Positions 49,068 through 57,043 of a stretch of 64,000 nucleotides of DNA are shown here, one piece after another; position 1 is the stretch's first letter; each line of letters starts with the position of its first letter. The notes under the pieces are model-generated. The model made no database searches, had not been told where the DNA came from, and worked only from the letters and a program-made list of their open reading frames with translations. The stretch spans positions 62,001 to 126,000 of the forward strand of contig JAUNOC010000001.1 of NCBI GenBank assembly GCA_030531205.1, given 5' to 3'. Origin of the DNA: Phascolarctobacterium sp. (GTDB lineage Bacteria; Bacillota; Negativicutes; Acidaminococcales; Acidaminococcaceae). A program made the position numbers and the translations under genes.

Positions 49068-49700
49068 TTTTCCCTCTTCTTGAAGAGGGTGGCTGCCCAC
49101 AGGAACACTGGGGCAGACGGGTGTTTTTGTTTATGCGTAGCATTCATATTCTGCTCATCACTTCTCTGTCAATCGTCAGGCACACGCCCTCTAAATTATG
49201 ATTTATATCCCAGTTGGTAAATCTAAGCACTTTCAATCCCATTTGTTCAAGATATTTTGTCCGTTCTTCATCACAAATCTTCGCATCCGGCTCATAGTGC
49301 TGAGCCCCATCTACTTCTATTACTAATCTTGCCTTATAACAATAAAAATCAACAATGTATTTGCCCAGTGGCTTTTGTCTTGTAAAGGTTACTTTGTATT
49401 TTTGCAAATATATATACCAAAGTTTTCCCTCTTCTTTGGTTTGTTCTCTTCGCAAGCGTTGGGAATTACGTTTGTTATAGCATTCATAGAGAATTTTTAC
49501 ATATTCAGTTGGTCTGCCTTCTTCATTTCTGATTTCTATATTCATGATTCCTATTTGAACACTTCGTGTAAACCAAAACACCCACCGTCTTTCTATGTTC
49601 CTAAAAACGGTCCCCCCTCTTCAAGAAGAGGGAAAACTTCGCACTATGCCGACTTTCCTGCTATAATCGCAGGAACATCTTTCCATAACTTTAAGTTTTA
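49068..49700. mobile_element. DUF559 endonuclease element, copy 1
   Basis: A DUF559 gene between two inverted modules. Left: CCCTCTTC-TTGAAGAGGG hairpin, CTGCCC-ACAGGAACACTG-GGGCAG, then GGGTG. Right: CACCC, ACCG...TATGTTCCTAAAAA...CGGT, then the mirrored CCCTCTTCAAGAAGAGGG hairpin and the core AATCGCAGGAACATCTTTCC. Matches copy 2 closely well outside the coding part. Confidence 0.72.
49144..49545 (-). CDS. DUF559 (VSR/restriction-like endonuclease fold) protein, copy 1
   Basis: 133 residues from the ATG at 49545, which follows AGGA; the frame opens earlier at 49581. DUF559 core: LRREQTKEEGKLWYIYL, then PLGKYIVDFYCYKARLVIEVDGAQHY with the D...E.DG cluster of PD-(D/E)xK/VSR-type nucleases, and LKVLRFTNWDINHNLE. 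Likely a small DNA nickase or endonuclease. By hand alignment it differs from copy 2 at 18 of 133 positions. Confidence 0.82.
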   Translation of the reverse strand: MNIEIRNEEGRPTEYVKILYECYNKRNSQRLRREQTKEEGKLWYIYLQKYKVTFTRQKPLGKYIVDFYCYKARLVIEVDGAQHYEPDAKICDEERTKYLEQMGLKVLRFTNWDINHNLEGVCLTIDREVMSRI

Positions 49701-51071: not shown

Positions 51072-52319
51072 TTAGTATTCTCCTTTCAAATATACTTCCT
51101 GCTCTTTAGTCAGTTTGTCAATTTTGTAGCCACCTGCCGCCAGTTTGAAGAAGGCAATTTCCTTGTCCAGTTCCTCCGGCAAGAGATACAATTTATTTTC
51201 CATTTCGCTGCCATGTTCTTTGATATATTTCATAGCCATAAACTGCATAGCAAAACTCAAGTCCATAATTTCAATGGGATGCCCGTCCGCACAAGCCAAA
51301 TTTACAAGCCGTCCCTGCCCCAAAAGGTTCAATTTATGCCCATTGGCAAGAGTATAAGTAGTTATGTTTTTCCGTACTTCATAAGGTTTTTTCACGCTCA
51401 ATTTTTCCAGTTCGGGAATGTTTATCTCCACATCAAAGTGTCCTGTGTTACACAGCACCGCTCCGTCTTTCATGTTCGCCATATGTTTTGCCCTGATAAC
51501 ATCTTTGCAACCTGTTACTGTAATGAAAATATCCCCAATATGAGCCGCCTTATCCATAGGCATTACTTGAAAACCATCGCACACCGCTTCAATCGCCTTT
51601 ACCGGGTCAATTTCCGTAACCACCACTTTTGCCCCCATACCTCTGGCACGCATACAAATGCCCTTGCCGCACCAGCCGTAGCCGGCCACAACTAATGTCT
51701 TGCCCGCAATAATTAAATTGGTTGTACGGATAATTCCGTCCAAACTGCTTTGCCCCGTGCCATAGCGATTGTCAAAAAGATATTTGCAGGTGGAATCATT
51801 AACAGAAATCATGGGGAAACGCAACTTGCCCGCCTCCGCCAGAGCGTGAAGCCGATGTACGCCGGTGGTAGTTTCCTCACTACCGCCCCAAATTTCCACT
51901 GCTTGTTTTGACCTTTTGCCGTGAAGCAAATTCACCAAATCGCCCCCATCATCCACAATCAAACTGGGATGACTGTCTAAAGCCATACACAGATATTTTT
52001 CGTATTCTTTCATCGTACAGCCATATTTGGCGAAGACCGAAATATTATTTTTAACTAAAGCCGCTGCCACATCGTCCTGAGTGGACAGGGGATTACAGCC
52101 GGTAGCCACCACATTGGCACCGCATTGTTTCAACAAAAGAACAAAAACTGCAGTTTTTGCTTCCATGTGAATGGACGTTACAATGTTGATGCCCTTAAAA
52201 ATCTTACTTTTACCAAATTTGTCGCCCAAGTATTTCATCAACGGCATATATTCTTTTGCCCAGTTGATTTTCTGCTCCCCCAGCGGAGCCAACTTGAGGT
52301 CTTTAACTACGCTTTGCAT
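51072..52319 (-). CDS. ahcY: S-adenosylhomocysteine hydrolase
   Basis: 415 residues, the shorter form. Substrate segments [15 protein letters not shown] and [18 protein letters not shown], the NAD Rossmann motif [20 protein letters not shown], and the conserved C-terminal Lys/Tyr end ([11 protein letters not shown] type). Splits SAH to adenosine and homocysteine. First gene after the riboswitch; the last bases of ahcY are one base from metK. Confidence 0.94.
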
Positions 52320-52388: not shown

Positions 52389-52497
52389 TTCTCATCTTCC
52401 GAAAACTCGTTGGAATTAGCACCGTTTACAAATGGTCAATCTGTAATGGTTGCTGCGGCTTCATCGGGCCAGTCCCTCTGCCGCTCTTGATGAGTAA
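52389..52497 (-). ncRNA. SAM-I (S-box) riboswitch
   Basis: Read on the minus strand: CTCATCAAGAG, AGAGGGACTGGCCCGATGA, AGCCGCAGCAACC, GGTGCTAATTCC, and the closing GATGAG that pairs with the first CTCATC. These are the diagnostic S-box elements in order. High SAM should favour the terminator and switch off ahcY-metK. Confidence 0.93.
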
Positions 52498-52850: not shown

Positions 52851-52892
52851 TAATTCTAAATTCATAATTCTTAATTTCCCTGAACCCTGTAA

Positions 52893-52932
52893 AAAAGGGG
52901 CAAATGTTTCACGTGAAACATTGCCCCTTTTT
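52893..52932 (-). terminator. Terminator hairpin built around a parS site
   Basis: AAAAGGGGCAA...TTGCCCCTTTTT flanking TGTTTCACGTGAAACA; the whole is an inverted repeat except for one extra A. It lies 3 bp after the lipoprotein stop. Confidence 0.75.
52905..52920. other. parS: parS centromere site 1
   Basis: TGTTTCACGTGAAACA, the exact 16-bp consensus bound by chromosomal ParB (Spo0J). Chromosomal parS sites cluster around the origin. Confidence 0.93.
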
Positions 52933-52934
52933 AA

Positions 52935-53291
52935 TCATTTCTTTTTCAATTTCTTCAACGCATCTTCCAATTTGCCCTTAACCTCTGCCATATCTTTTTC
53001 TGATACATTGTCTTTTACCACTTCTTTAATGTCATTCAGTTGTTTCTCAATCTTCTTTACTGTTTCCGCTGTATTGCCATTGGCTTCTTTAATCTTTTCC
53101 ACCACTTCTTTTTGCAACTTCTGTGCTTCCGCTTTTACCTTGTTCAATTTTTCGGTTACTTTTGCTTTGGTTTCCTGTACTGTTTGTGTACTTCCACTGT
53201 TTGTCGGAGCAGAACCTCCACCATTAGAACCGCCGCACCCTGTAACCGCCATAGCCATAACCACCAAGCCAATTCCCAATTCTTTTTTCAT
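52935..53291 (-). CDS. Small lipoprotein with a long helical tail
   Basis: 118 residues. Signal with lipobox VTGC (lipid Cys at 19), a Gly/Ser/Asn linker, then residues about 45-118 as one long amphipathic, Lys/Glu-rich helix with heptad-like spacing, probably a coiled coil. Not a named family. No other gene in its transcript. It is the only gene between the two parS sites. Confidence 0.65.
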   Translation of the reverse strand: MKKELGIGLVVMAMAVTGCGGSNGGGSAPTNSGSTQTVQETKAKVTEKLNKVKAEAQKLQKEVVEKIKEANGNTAETVKKIEKQLNDIKEVVKDNVSEKDMAEVKGKLEDALKKLKKK

Positions 53292-53329
53292 TTTAATTTG
53301 CCTCCTATTTTTATATTATTTTATTTGAA

Positions 53330-53345
53330 TGTTTCACGTGAAACA
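53330..53345. other. parS: parS centromere site 2
   Basis: Second perfect TGTTTCACGTGAAACA, 425 bp from site 1 and immediately next to the ybaK stop. Confidence 0.93.
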
Positions 53346-53816
53346 TTACATACTTTTGCAGACATCAATCCACGCCGTAAAGTTTTGAGCAAACTTTTCC
53401 AACTCGTCTAATTTTAATTCAATGGCAGAATTTGAAGAGCCGCAAGCGGGGAAAACCGTCTCAAATCTTTTCAAGGAACTGTCCAAATAAACTTTTACGC
53501 CATCATTAACACCAAAGGGACAAACTCCACCGATACTATGACCAATCATATTATCCACCTGTTCCGGGGTGAGCATTTTCGCTTTAGTGGCGAATTGTTG
53601 TTTGAATTTTTGGTTATCCACCTTCATATCCCCTGCAGTTACAATCATAATTGCAGCATCATCCACCAAAAAGGTCAAAGATTTGGCAATGCGGCATGGT
53701 TCTGTGCCTGCTGCCTTCGCAGCCAATTCAACCGTGGCACTGGACTGGGGAAATTCCAAAATTCTGCCGTCCGCACCAAACTTTTTCAAATACTCTCTTG
53801 CTTTTTCAATAGCCAT
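53346..53816 (-). CDS. ybaK: YbaK/aminoacyl-tRNA deacylase family protein
   Basis: 156 residues. A single YbaK/ProX domain: SSATVELAAKAAGTEPCRIAKSLTF and GGVCPFGVNDGVKVYLD. Members hydrolyse mischarged Cys- or Ala-tRNA-Pro. The GxxxP loop is intact. Monocistronic. Confidence 0.87.
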   Translation of the reverse strand: MAIEKAREYLKKFGADGRILEFPQSSATVELAAKAAGTEPCRIAKSLTFLVDDAAIMIVTAGDMKVDNQKFKQQFATKAKMLTPEQVDNMIGHSIGGVCPFGVNDGVKVYLDSSLKRFETVFPACGSSNSAIELKLDELEKFAQNFTAWIDVCKSM

Positions 53817-53844: not shown

Positions 53845-54515
53845 TTATATTATAATCGTAGGAAAATATTACCATGTTTTCCCTCTTCTTGAAGAGGGTG
53901 GCTACCCACAGGAACACAGGGGCAGACGGGTGTTTTTGTTTATGCGGAGCATTCATATTCTGCTCGTCACTTCTCTGTCAATCGTCAGGCATACACCCTC
54001 TAAATTGTGATTTATGTCCCAATTGGTAAATCTAATCACTTTCAATCCCATTCGTTCAAGATATTTTTTCCGCTCTTCATCACGAAGCATCACATCCGAT
54101 TCATAATGTTGAGCCCCATCTATTTCTATTACTAATTTCGCCTTATGACAATAAAAATCCACAATGTATTCGCCAAGTGGCTTTTGTCTTGTAAAGGTTA
54201 CTTTGTATTTACGCAAATATATATACCAAAGTTTCCCTTCTTCTTTGGTTTGCTCTCTTCGCAAGCGTTGGGAATTTTCTTTGTTATGTTGTTCATAGAG
54301 AATTTTTACATATTCAGTTGGTCTGCCTGCTTCATTTCTGATTTCTATATTCATCGTTTTTTTGAACACTTCGTGTAGACAAAAACACCCACCGTTCTTC
54401 TATGTTCCTAAAAACGGTCCCCCCCCCCTTCAAGAAGAGGGAAACCTTCTCACTACGCCACCTTCCCCTGCTATAATCACAGGAACATTTCACCATAATT
54501 TCGCATTACGTATTA
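53845..54515. mobile_element. DUF559 endonuclease element, copy 2
   Basis: Same plan as copy 1: mirrored CCCTCTTC hairpins, CTACCC-ACAGGAACACAG-GGGCAG left module, CACCC...GTTCTTCTATGTTCC...CGGTCCCC right module, and core repeats (AATCGTAGGAAAATATTACC near 53853; AATCACAGGAACATTTCACC near 54475). About 70 bp on the 3' side of the gene is nearly identical to copy 1. Confidence 0.72.
53953..54354 (-). CDS. DUF559 (VSR/restriction-like endonuclease fold) protein, copy 2
   Basis: 133 residues in the same frame as copy 1 with the nuclease core PLGEYIVDFYCHKAKLVIEIDG intact. No clear AGGA site precedes the ATG in this copy because the upstream bases have changed, so it may be less expressed. Changes are concentrated in the middle (residues about 95-110) and in the N-terminal helix, while the nuclease core is conserved, which suggests selection for function. 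Confidence 0.8.
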   Translation of the reverse strand: MNIEIRNEAGRPTEYVKILYEQHNKENSQRLRREQTKEEGKLWYIYLRKYKVTFTRQKPLGEYIVDFYCHKAKLVIEIDGAQHYESDVMLRDEERKKYLERMGLKVIRFTNWDINHNLEGVCLTIDREVTSRI

Positions 54516-55169: not shown

Positions 55170-55440
55170 AACTAATCAGTAATGAATAATTATGGACAAT
55201 TTTCGCTTTGCAAAAATTCCCTATTATACAATCATCGGAACATCCTACCATATTTGGTCTATGCTCTTTGACATTTATCTTCAAATTAAAGTATCAACCT
55301 AATTGCTCACCCCACCACCAGCCACCGAAAAACTATCGCTGGTCCCCCGCCCCTTTATGGGCGGACGAGGGTTTGCACTATGCTAACTTACCTGATGCCT
55401 GATGCCTGAAACCTGATACCTGACACCTGAACAAACAATT
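55170..55440. repeat. Intergenic repeats between the His-rich gene and the transporters
   Basis: A short palindromic copy (GAATAATTATGGACAATTTT...CAAAAATT, core AATCATCGGAACATCCTACC near 55220) and a right-type module (CACCAGCCACCG...GGTCCCCC plus GCCCC/GGGCG hairpin near 55345-55365). Repeated CTGATGCCTGATGCC/CTGATACC words follow near 55393-55430. Confidence 0.65.
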
Positions 55441-55459
55441 TCCCGGGAAATTAAATTCT

Positions 55460-57043
55460 TTATTCTTTCTTCTTAACCATTCCCAAATCATCTGCCGCTA
55501 AGATCAGGGTGTTCAAACTGCTGGTAACATTTACGCCCGTAAGTGTCATATCTATAATAACATCCACAGCAATATAAATTGCCAAACAATATTCCGGCAA
55601 CAATGCTTGTGCCATTAAAATTGCCATTACAGAAATAGCACCACCAGGAATATGGGGGGCTGCAATAGCAATAATATAACAAGCCAAAGCAATAACAATT
55701 AATCTCGGAACAGGGATGGCTATGCCGCAAACCTCACTAAATCCCATAAGAATTCCCAAAAAACCAATTACAGTCCCTGTGTTAACCAAAATTTGAGAAA
55801 TAGGCAAACTAAAATTCAAAAGTTTTTTGTCCACCCCTAAACTGGTACATAATTTATCTAATAATGGAATACATGCAGCAGAACTGGATGTAGAAACCGC
55901 CAATAGTGTGAGAGGTATCGCTAATTTAAAATAATTTTTTATGCCAAACTTAAAACGCCATCCCGTATAAAGTGTTTCCAAGACAATATAGCAAATTCCT
56001 GCCAATACAAATACTAATAAGGGTTTCCATACCTTCAGAACATAAACAAGATTCCCGCTCAAAATAACATTTGTAAAAGAAAGATACACAATGAAAGGAA
56101 TACTTTTACAAAAATAAGTAACCGCTGTCATAAAAACAGTACTAAGCTCATTAACAAAAGCAATAACACCTTTTGCCTGTTGGTCTAAAATCAAAAGAAT
56201 AATACCTGTTGTTACTGCCAAAAAGATAATTTGCAAAGTATTACCATCAACAAATGGCTGAAGCAGACTGCCAGGCACAATACCCACTAACATTTGAAAA
56301 ATAGTTTTTAGTACGGACAAGTCCATACCGCCGCCAAACTCTACAACTCCAAATGCTACCGTGTAAATTACCACACCAAATATTAGTGCAACAAAATTGC
56401 GTTTTAAAATAGCACCAAGAACCCGCATACCCATATTGCTCAAAGTAGCAATATTACCTACATTGCAAATACCACTAAGCACACCAAAGAAAATCATAAA
56501 GGTAGCCAGCCCCCCCAGCAAACTCAACATCATTTTGAATAATGGCTGGATAATTTCTGTGGCAACTATTTTAGCAATATCTGTCCCAGCTAAATTTATA
56601 GCATAACCTGTAAGAAACGCCAGCAAAATACTGATCGCAATTTTACCTACACCGCCAATGTTGACCATAGGTAATTTGATATCGACTATATTATTACCGG
56701 CACGATATTTGTATGTAGTAGCCAACCCAACATTTGTCATAACGCTATTAAAATAATTCATAGCTTCATTGGCCAACGCATCATCCCCATTATTCTCTAG
56801 TGGGTTAATTTGTTGCCCCTCAAATGACAAACATACATAGGGTCTAAAAAAACGTTTGCCTGTTTCCAACACTACTTCTGTATTGGCAGGTGCTTTTTCC
56901 AACCAAGCCAAAAGTAATGTTTCCACAGTCAAACGCCCTTTAATAATCCCCATGGAAGAAATTTTAAGTTTTTTCATATATGACGCTATTTCATCAGAAA
57001 TAGCGTCAATATTTTCAGATGATAAAAGATATGTTTTTTTCAT
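55460..57043 (-). CDS. GHKL-like domain fused to an SLC1/DAACS transporter, paralog 1
   Basis: 527 residues. Residues 1-126 are a soluble domain that aligns with the GHKL domains of the two neighbour proteins: Glu41 (ETLLL) at the N-box position, SFEGQQINPL (73-82) against DSGKPFDP, and YKYRAGNNIVDI (111-122) against YKYEHGQNIVTV. The N-box Asn and the glycine-rich lid are lost, so ATP binding is doubtful. Residues about 130-520 are a DAACS glutamate-transporter-like domain with SSS near 386-388, PGGAISVM and DMTLTGVNVT (498-507). Compared with GltPh, the acidic-side-chain Arg is Leu501 and the Na+-site Asn/Asp residues are Val420, Thr422 and Ser509. Starts 4 bp after paralog 2. Confidence 0.72.
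   Translation of the reverse strand: MKKTYLLSSENIDAISDEIASYMKKLKISSMGIIKGRLTVETLLLAWLEKAPANTEVVLETGKRFFRPYVCLSFEGQQINPLENNGDDALANEAMNYFNSVMTNVGLATTYKYRAGNNIVDIKLPMVNIGGVGKIAISILLAFLTGYAINLAGTDIAKIVATEIIQPLFKMMLSLLGGLATFMIFFGVLSGICNVGNIATLSNMGMRVLGAILKRNFVALIFGVVIYTVAFGVVEFGGGMDLSVLKTIFQMLVGIVPGSLLQPFVDGNTLQIIFLAVTTGIILLILDQQAKGVIAFVNELSTVFMTAVTYFCKSIPFIVYLSFTNVILSGNLVYVLKVWKPLLVFVLAGICYIVLETLYTGWRFKFGIKNYFKLAIPLTLLAVSTSSSAACIPLLDKLCTSLGVDKKLLNFSLPISQILVNTGTVIGFLGILMGFSEVCGIAIPVPRLIVIALACYIIAIAAPHIPGGAISVMAILMAQALLPEYCLAIYIAVDVIIDMTLTGVNVTSSLNTLILAADDLGMVKKKE

Follow-up and report, generated by a model that had tools for sequence, protein, structure and literature searches.

One of two perfect parS sites in a Phascolarctobacterium genome lies within a hairpin that has the features of an intrinsic terminator. 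We consider it probable that this site (site 1) is a composite of parS and intrinsic terminator and that its neighbor (site 2) is a plain parS. As the best reading of the sequences compared here, parS appears to have been built repeatedly into intrinsic terminators, where a single element would serve both chromosome segregation and the ending of transcription. ParB nucleation and termination in the cell would then take place at the same DNA.

A unique pair of parS sites in the origin region

The window, a stretch of 64,000 nucleotides, had been annotated in a first pass as holding two perfect parS sites 425 bp apart, and both were confirmed at 52905 and 53330. The sequence TGTTTCACGTGAAACA is a perfect 16-bp palindrome and occurs exactly twice, with 425 bp from start to start; no further copy was found in the window with up to three mismatches allowed. 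The sites and their neighbors are as follows:

52905 to 52920, no strand: parS site 1, perfect 16-bp palindrome TGTTTCACGTGAAACA
52891 to 52932, no strand: terminator-like hairpin including parS site 1, A6-GGGGC-AAA-parS-TT-GCCCC-T5
53330 to 53345, no strand: parS site 2, likewise a perfect 16-bp palindrome, immediately 3' of the YbaK-like stop codon, terminator features absent
52935 to 53291, minus strand: predicted lipoprotein gene, 118 aa, lipobox (VTGC) identified by eye, no Pfam match above cut-off, 3' end putatively served by the site-1 hairpin
53346 to 53816, minus strand: gene of a YbaK-like aminoacyl-tRNA editing protein (PF04073), stop codon abutting parS site 2

A genome-wide parS map, proposed in the first pass for placing the origin, was drawn for all 15 contigs (1,330,714 bases, 98.78% complete). 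It contained no exact copy besides the window pair and no copy with one or two mismatches; at up to three mismatches, the only extra matches were two with three mismatches, compared to 15 for a backward control. Under a composition model, 0.0004 exact copies are expected in each genome, which rules out a chance origin of the pair.

The sites are located at 114.9 and 115.3 kb of contig C6, which also carries dnaA (197.2 kb), parB and noc. The cumulative GC-skew has its minimum at C6:197001 (164 kb examined). In a genome of 1.33 Mb, the pair thus lies about 82 kb from dnaA as well as from the skew minimum, which bears out the suggested location in the origin region. Sites 1 and 2 would be the only strong ParB loading sites of this genome, about 82 kb to the left of oriC.

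Site 1 is a terminator-like hairpin

Site 1 is a bidirectional terminator-like hairpin, strong by prediction. With the exception of one extra A, the stem at 52891-52932 is completely paired, parS forming its upper part, and the U-tract comprises six residues on the minus strand (52891-52896) and five on the plus strand. The predicted fold reaches -23.7 kcal/mol (z -5.2) on the minus and -24.2 kcal/mol (z -5.7) on the plus strand, and in neither case was one of 200 shuffled sequences equally stable. On the minus strand, the stem starts 2-3 nt 3' of the lipoprotein stop codon. Site 1 has the sequence features expected of an intrinsic terminator: a stable G+C-bearing hairpin whose stem is followed at once by a U-tract, positioned shortly after a gene. 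Scanning 90 nt after each of 56 gene ends revealed U-tract hairpins at 32 of them, among which site 1 was the fourth strongest; site 1 was not among the matches of a consensus scan of the region, and its hairpin is evident from folding and from the gene-end scan. Site 2 was rejected as a terminator, as it folds with only -7.4 kcal/mol and has neither a lower stem nor a U-tract.

Both sequence and folding agree with the earlier description of site 1 as part of a near-perfect longer inverted repeat with a T tract, directly 3' of a gene. This gene and the lipoprotein gene between the parS sites, which had been mentioned separately, are one and the same minus strand gene (52935-53291). The first-pass idea of a dual element holds at the sequence level for site 1, where parS and a terminator-like hairpin coincide in an arrangement that recurs with compensatory changes (see below); site 2 is a plain parS.

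In the proposed mechanism, a G+C-bearing stem lengthens the parS palindrome, A/T tracts flank it, and RNA arriving from either side would fold into an intrinsic terminator. As a terminator, site 1 would chiefly serve to stop transcripts of the lipoprotein gene, which reach it from the right. A palindromic protein-binding site at a gene end may provide an upper stem that is already in place, and termination at this position may stop RNA polymerase from running into the ParB-loading region. Intrinsic terminators act only once the polymerase has copied the entire stem. Polymerase would consequently have to cross parS, so that the terminator would halt run-on transcription and provide no shield for this parS itself.

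parS hairpins recur within Acidaminococcaceae

With up to two mismatches allowed, parS matches were obtained in 55 of 59 Acidaminococcaceae genomes. For flank analysis we used sites whose flanks reached 25 nt or more in the fetched loci, a subset of the sites in the 59 genomes. Among the resulting 72 unique exact parS sites, 28 showed at least five extra stem pairs, compared to 3.95 with permuted right flanks (maximum 12, 500 permutations), and 15 were terminator-like, compared to 1.75 expected after permutation (maximum 7). A slightly laxer T window increased this number to 16 (L094 added), 15 of which were intergenic. Gene contexts were assigned by crude ORF picking; in the case of site 1, this selected a wrong plus strand ORF. 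Two side observations concern the parS inventory of the family: long palindromes without T-runs surround parS in genus g2 (L263, L265, L268), mostly between divergent genes, and genomes G025-G028 contain 26 to 43 parS-like sites each (up to two mismatches), far above other family members.

Noc-gene 3' ends

In the fetched family loci, a parS was located within 200 bp of 9 of 16 Noc-gene 3' ends, which is not a frequency because the loci had been chosen for holding parS. At seven of these nine ends parS formed the terminator hairpin; the other two, from one genus, did not show this. By eye, five of the seven Noc 3' ends without parS had an ordinary T-tract hairpin. Four of the seven parS hairpins are found at the noc-parA junction. 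When the seven Noc-end hairpins were aligned, five pairs were changed on both sides, and 13 compensatory cells were counted compared to 4.2 in shuffled alignments, a value reached by none of 500 shuffles. All aligned rows (A1, A2; the seven Noc ends) had been preselected as terminator-like hairpins, and their 100% pairing is partly selection and not evidence. The same parS-hairpin arrangement was detected 12 bp after noc in two contigs outside the family (L153, L194).

These loci also shed light on the history of the region. In genus g6 (L282), the gene order is noc, FMN-protein gene, YbaK, parS, parA, parB and a DUF554-like gene (names partly from sequence), with a second parS inside parB. 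Six Acidaminococcaceae genomes from a genus other than that of the window have the orthologue of the YbaK-like gene beside parS. In the genome studied here, parS is still beside YbaK, and parA-parB is inverted and positioned beside noc, about 70 kb away. It seems that the parA-parB genes moved and the parS next to YbaK stayed behind.

Recurrence beyond the family

For a wide scan of genome contigs, we applied the pattern AAAAG-N(2-10)-parS-N(2-10)-CTTTT, which leaves the inner flanks unspecified, and obtained at least 119 matching contigs. According to their titles, these presumably belong to Clostridia, Bacilli, Proteobacteria, Actinobacteria, Chloroflexota and Spirochaetes; single record titles call for care, as L114, titled Acholeplasmataceae, shares its flank with family genome G042. 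At least five consecutive pairs in the inner flanks were present in 63 of the first 80 sites and in 97 of the 118 unique sites among the matches listed. These 118 sites, again among the matches listed, had on average 8.36 consecutive pairs compared to 1.06 after permutation, and the unspecified positions ±1 and ±2 were complementary in 93% and 96% of them, with 49% and 51% expected. Several base-pair types occurred at each position of the paired inner flanks of the listed sites. Five of the 118 sites are shared with the family set and 113 are independent of it.

Across the phylum, exact parS was present in 246 of 398 genomes and the narrow pattern in three of the 398, our own included. A phylum sample of 64 sites contained four terminator-like ones in comparison to 0.36 after permutation (maximum 3), which indicates a minority habit that is stronger in Acidaminococcaceae. 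As a separate observation from this set, the 3.0-Mb genome G384 carries 69 exact parS sites.

Terminator or merely a longer palindrome

The long palindrome could also be a feature of the DNA and not a terminator, reflecting an extended ParB contact, a cruciform or the neutral, hairpin-templated perfection of a quasi-palindrome. Such an origin would fit six family sites with a long stem and no T-run, two of them in ORFs and all four non-genic ones between divergent genes. These six sites demonstrate that stem extension is not always linked to termination and that another cause also exists. We regard a DNA-level feature in place of a terminator as unlikely. U-tract polarity appears only with extended stems: between 7 and 13 positions away from the core, extended sites (n=54) showed A-left/T-right in 24 cases against 6 of the opposite orientation, whereas unextended sites (n=165) were balanced at 18 to 18 (Fisher 4e-7). 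This fixed-distance test took the place of a stem-base polarity test, which was dropped as non-specific because unextended sites are also A-left/T-right beside the core (58 to 4). Moreover, most terminator-like family sites are situated no more than about 55 bp 3' of stop codons, and parS hairpins replace ordinary terminators at Noc 3' ends. These points argue for the composite of parS and terminator.

The lipoprotein gene and its surroundings

The first-pass annotation had further suggested that ParB spreading could affect the lipoprotein gene. Repression by ParB bound to site 2, or by spreading between the sites, would be compatible with a composite site 1, and the position of the gene between two parS sites 425 bp apart speaks for it, as does a weak promoter-like match (9/12) with its -35 box inside site 2. 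However, promoter-like matches in the 4.2-kb region amounted to 17 compared to 9.5 in shuffles, so that a single match is near chance level and provides no evidence by itself for a ParB effect on this gene. In addition, the authors of a study on F-plasmid ParB propose, in the excerpts available of PMC6238139, that promoters near parS are efficiently accessible to RNA polymerase when ParB is at its physiological level. Taken together, we rate repression of the lipoprotein gene as improbable.

Some further features of the neighborhood are recorded here. A SAM riboswitch (RF00162) at window positions 52389-52496 (minus strand) is upstream of the minus strand gene 51072-52319, adenosylhomocysteinase-like by sequence. 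Two DUF559 endonuclease-like genes (49144-49581 and 53953-54369, minus strand) lie within a duplicated stretch of 300 nt with 91% identity, about 4.8 kb apart, and a third core similar to this duplication is found near C6:190267.

ParB, ParA and Noc

Two ParB-family genes with ParB-type domains are encoded at 186.6 and 188.8 kb of C6. The gene order of the region comprises dnaN, recF and gyrB to the right and mnmE, mnmG, rsmG and noc to the left (names assigned from ORF sequence). ParA is also encoded in the genome, its identity judged from sequence only. ParB contains ParB_N and HTH_ParB domains, and the motifs GERR and ENLQR could be read in the ORF.

C6:186521-187486 of the genome, strand not given: ParB gene, Ser at the position of Gly201, Val at the position of Lys171

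Alignment to B. subtilis Spo0J (6sdk, E 6e-48) revealed that, of the specificity residues Arg173 and Gly201, Arg173 is kept and Gly201 is replaced by Ser; in addition, Lys171 is changed to Val. Both substitutions fall on parS-contact positions. The other Acidaminococcaceae ParB sequences retrieved retain Gly201, unlike the Ser201/Val171 protein. According to the sections of PMC7383237 available, Gly201 is absolutely conserved among extant ParB proteins, parS-specific variants of the screen may have small polar residues at 201, Ser among them, and most dual-specificity variants carry Thr or Ser there. As Ser201 is tolerated in this screen, parS binding by the Ser201 ParB is likely but not assured. 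By comparison with the same sections of PMC7383237, the two positions that set Noc specificity are occupied by Gln and Arg in the second ParB-family protein, which was therefore designated Noc.

These substitutions would fit a ParB of altered specificity that left both parS sites as non-functional relics, and so would the absence of an exact parS from both other genomes of the genus, one of them carrying a pair of related near-copies altered in the center. Such a loss of function is nevertheless very unlikely given two perfect copies against 0.0004 expected, the retained Arg173 and the one-hybrid parS-specific variants that may have Ser201 (PMC7383237, in the sections available). The near-copies (TGTTTCRCACGAAACA; L303:6868 and L304:946), in genome G001, have about 60 bp of context in common and possibly represent a shifted ParB site; no ParB of this genome was found in 20 contigs.

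Relation to known systems

The pair resembles the chromosomal parS sites of the ParABS systems of B. subtilis (Spo0J), C. crescentus and P. aeruginosa (ParB) in the 16-bp parS, the origin region and the genes of ParB, ParA and Noc type. It differs from them in three respects: a terminator-like hairpin encloses one of the sites, the number of sites is just two, and ParB does not have Gly201. Livny 2007, reportedly a survey of parS sites, may touch on parS terminators. Among titles and abstract starts of the literature on parS combined with terminators or hairpins, we found no report of parS as a terminator, and the word 'terminator' is absent from PMC4368675, PMC5815017 and PMC7333895. The components are known, and parS-terminators as a recurrent class were not found in the literature searched at this level.

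The nearest precedent is provided by the DNA uptake sequences of Neisseria and Pasteurellaceae, likewise a chromosomal motif read by a protein and proposed as a terminator hairpin (PMC2346458, in the parts available). Their role as terminators is described there as contentious, with Ambur 2007 among the references. Uptake sequences need two inverted copies, are present in hundreds to thousands and serve DNA uptake, whereas parS is a single palindrome that serves segregation.

A recurrent parS-terminator bears on the placement of parS sites and on how ParB loading copes with transcription, and it offers a defined class of sequences, replicated many times in nature, for probing whether centromere binding and termination influence each other. 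It also calls for caution, as mutation of the parS core in such places may disturb a terminator. A selected regulatory element in which segregation and termination are coupled is conceivable but doubtful on the sequences compared. In this scenario, ParB on parS would block RNA polymerase before completion of the hairpin, and polymerase passing a free parS would terminate in the U-tract. If so, the position of RNA 3' ends at parS-terminators would report ParB occupancy, and in several relatives those located at the noc-parA junction could link parAB expression to centromere state.

Noc and its binding site (NBS) form a paralogous pair of protein and site; Noc recognizes ATTTCCCGGGAAAT and not parS.

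55438 to 55451, no strand: exact Noc-binding-site core ATTTCCCGGGAAAT, just 3' of the stop codon of the minus strand gene 55460-57043

This is the only exact copy in the genome, 2.1 kb from parS site 2 and, like that site, after a stop codon; seven copies with one mismatch are scattered. Finally, a 25-nt repeat, TATAATCACAGGAACATTTTACCAT (up to four mismatches), is present in 23 copies across the 164 kb of C6:62001-226000; four copies lie no more than 1.6 kb from the parS pair.
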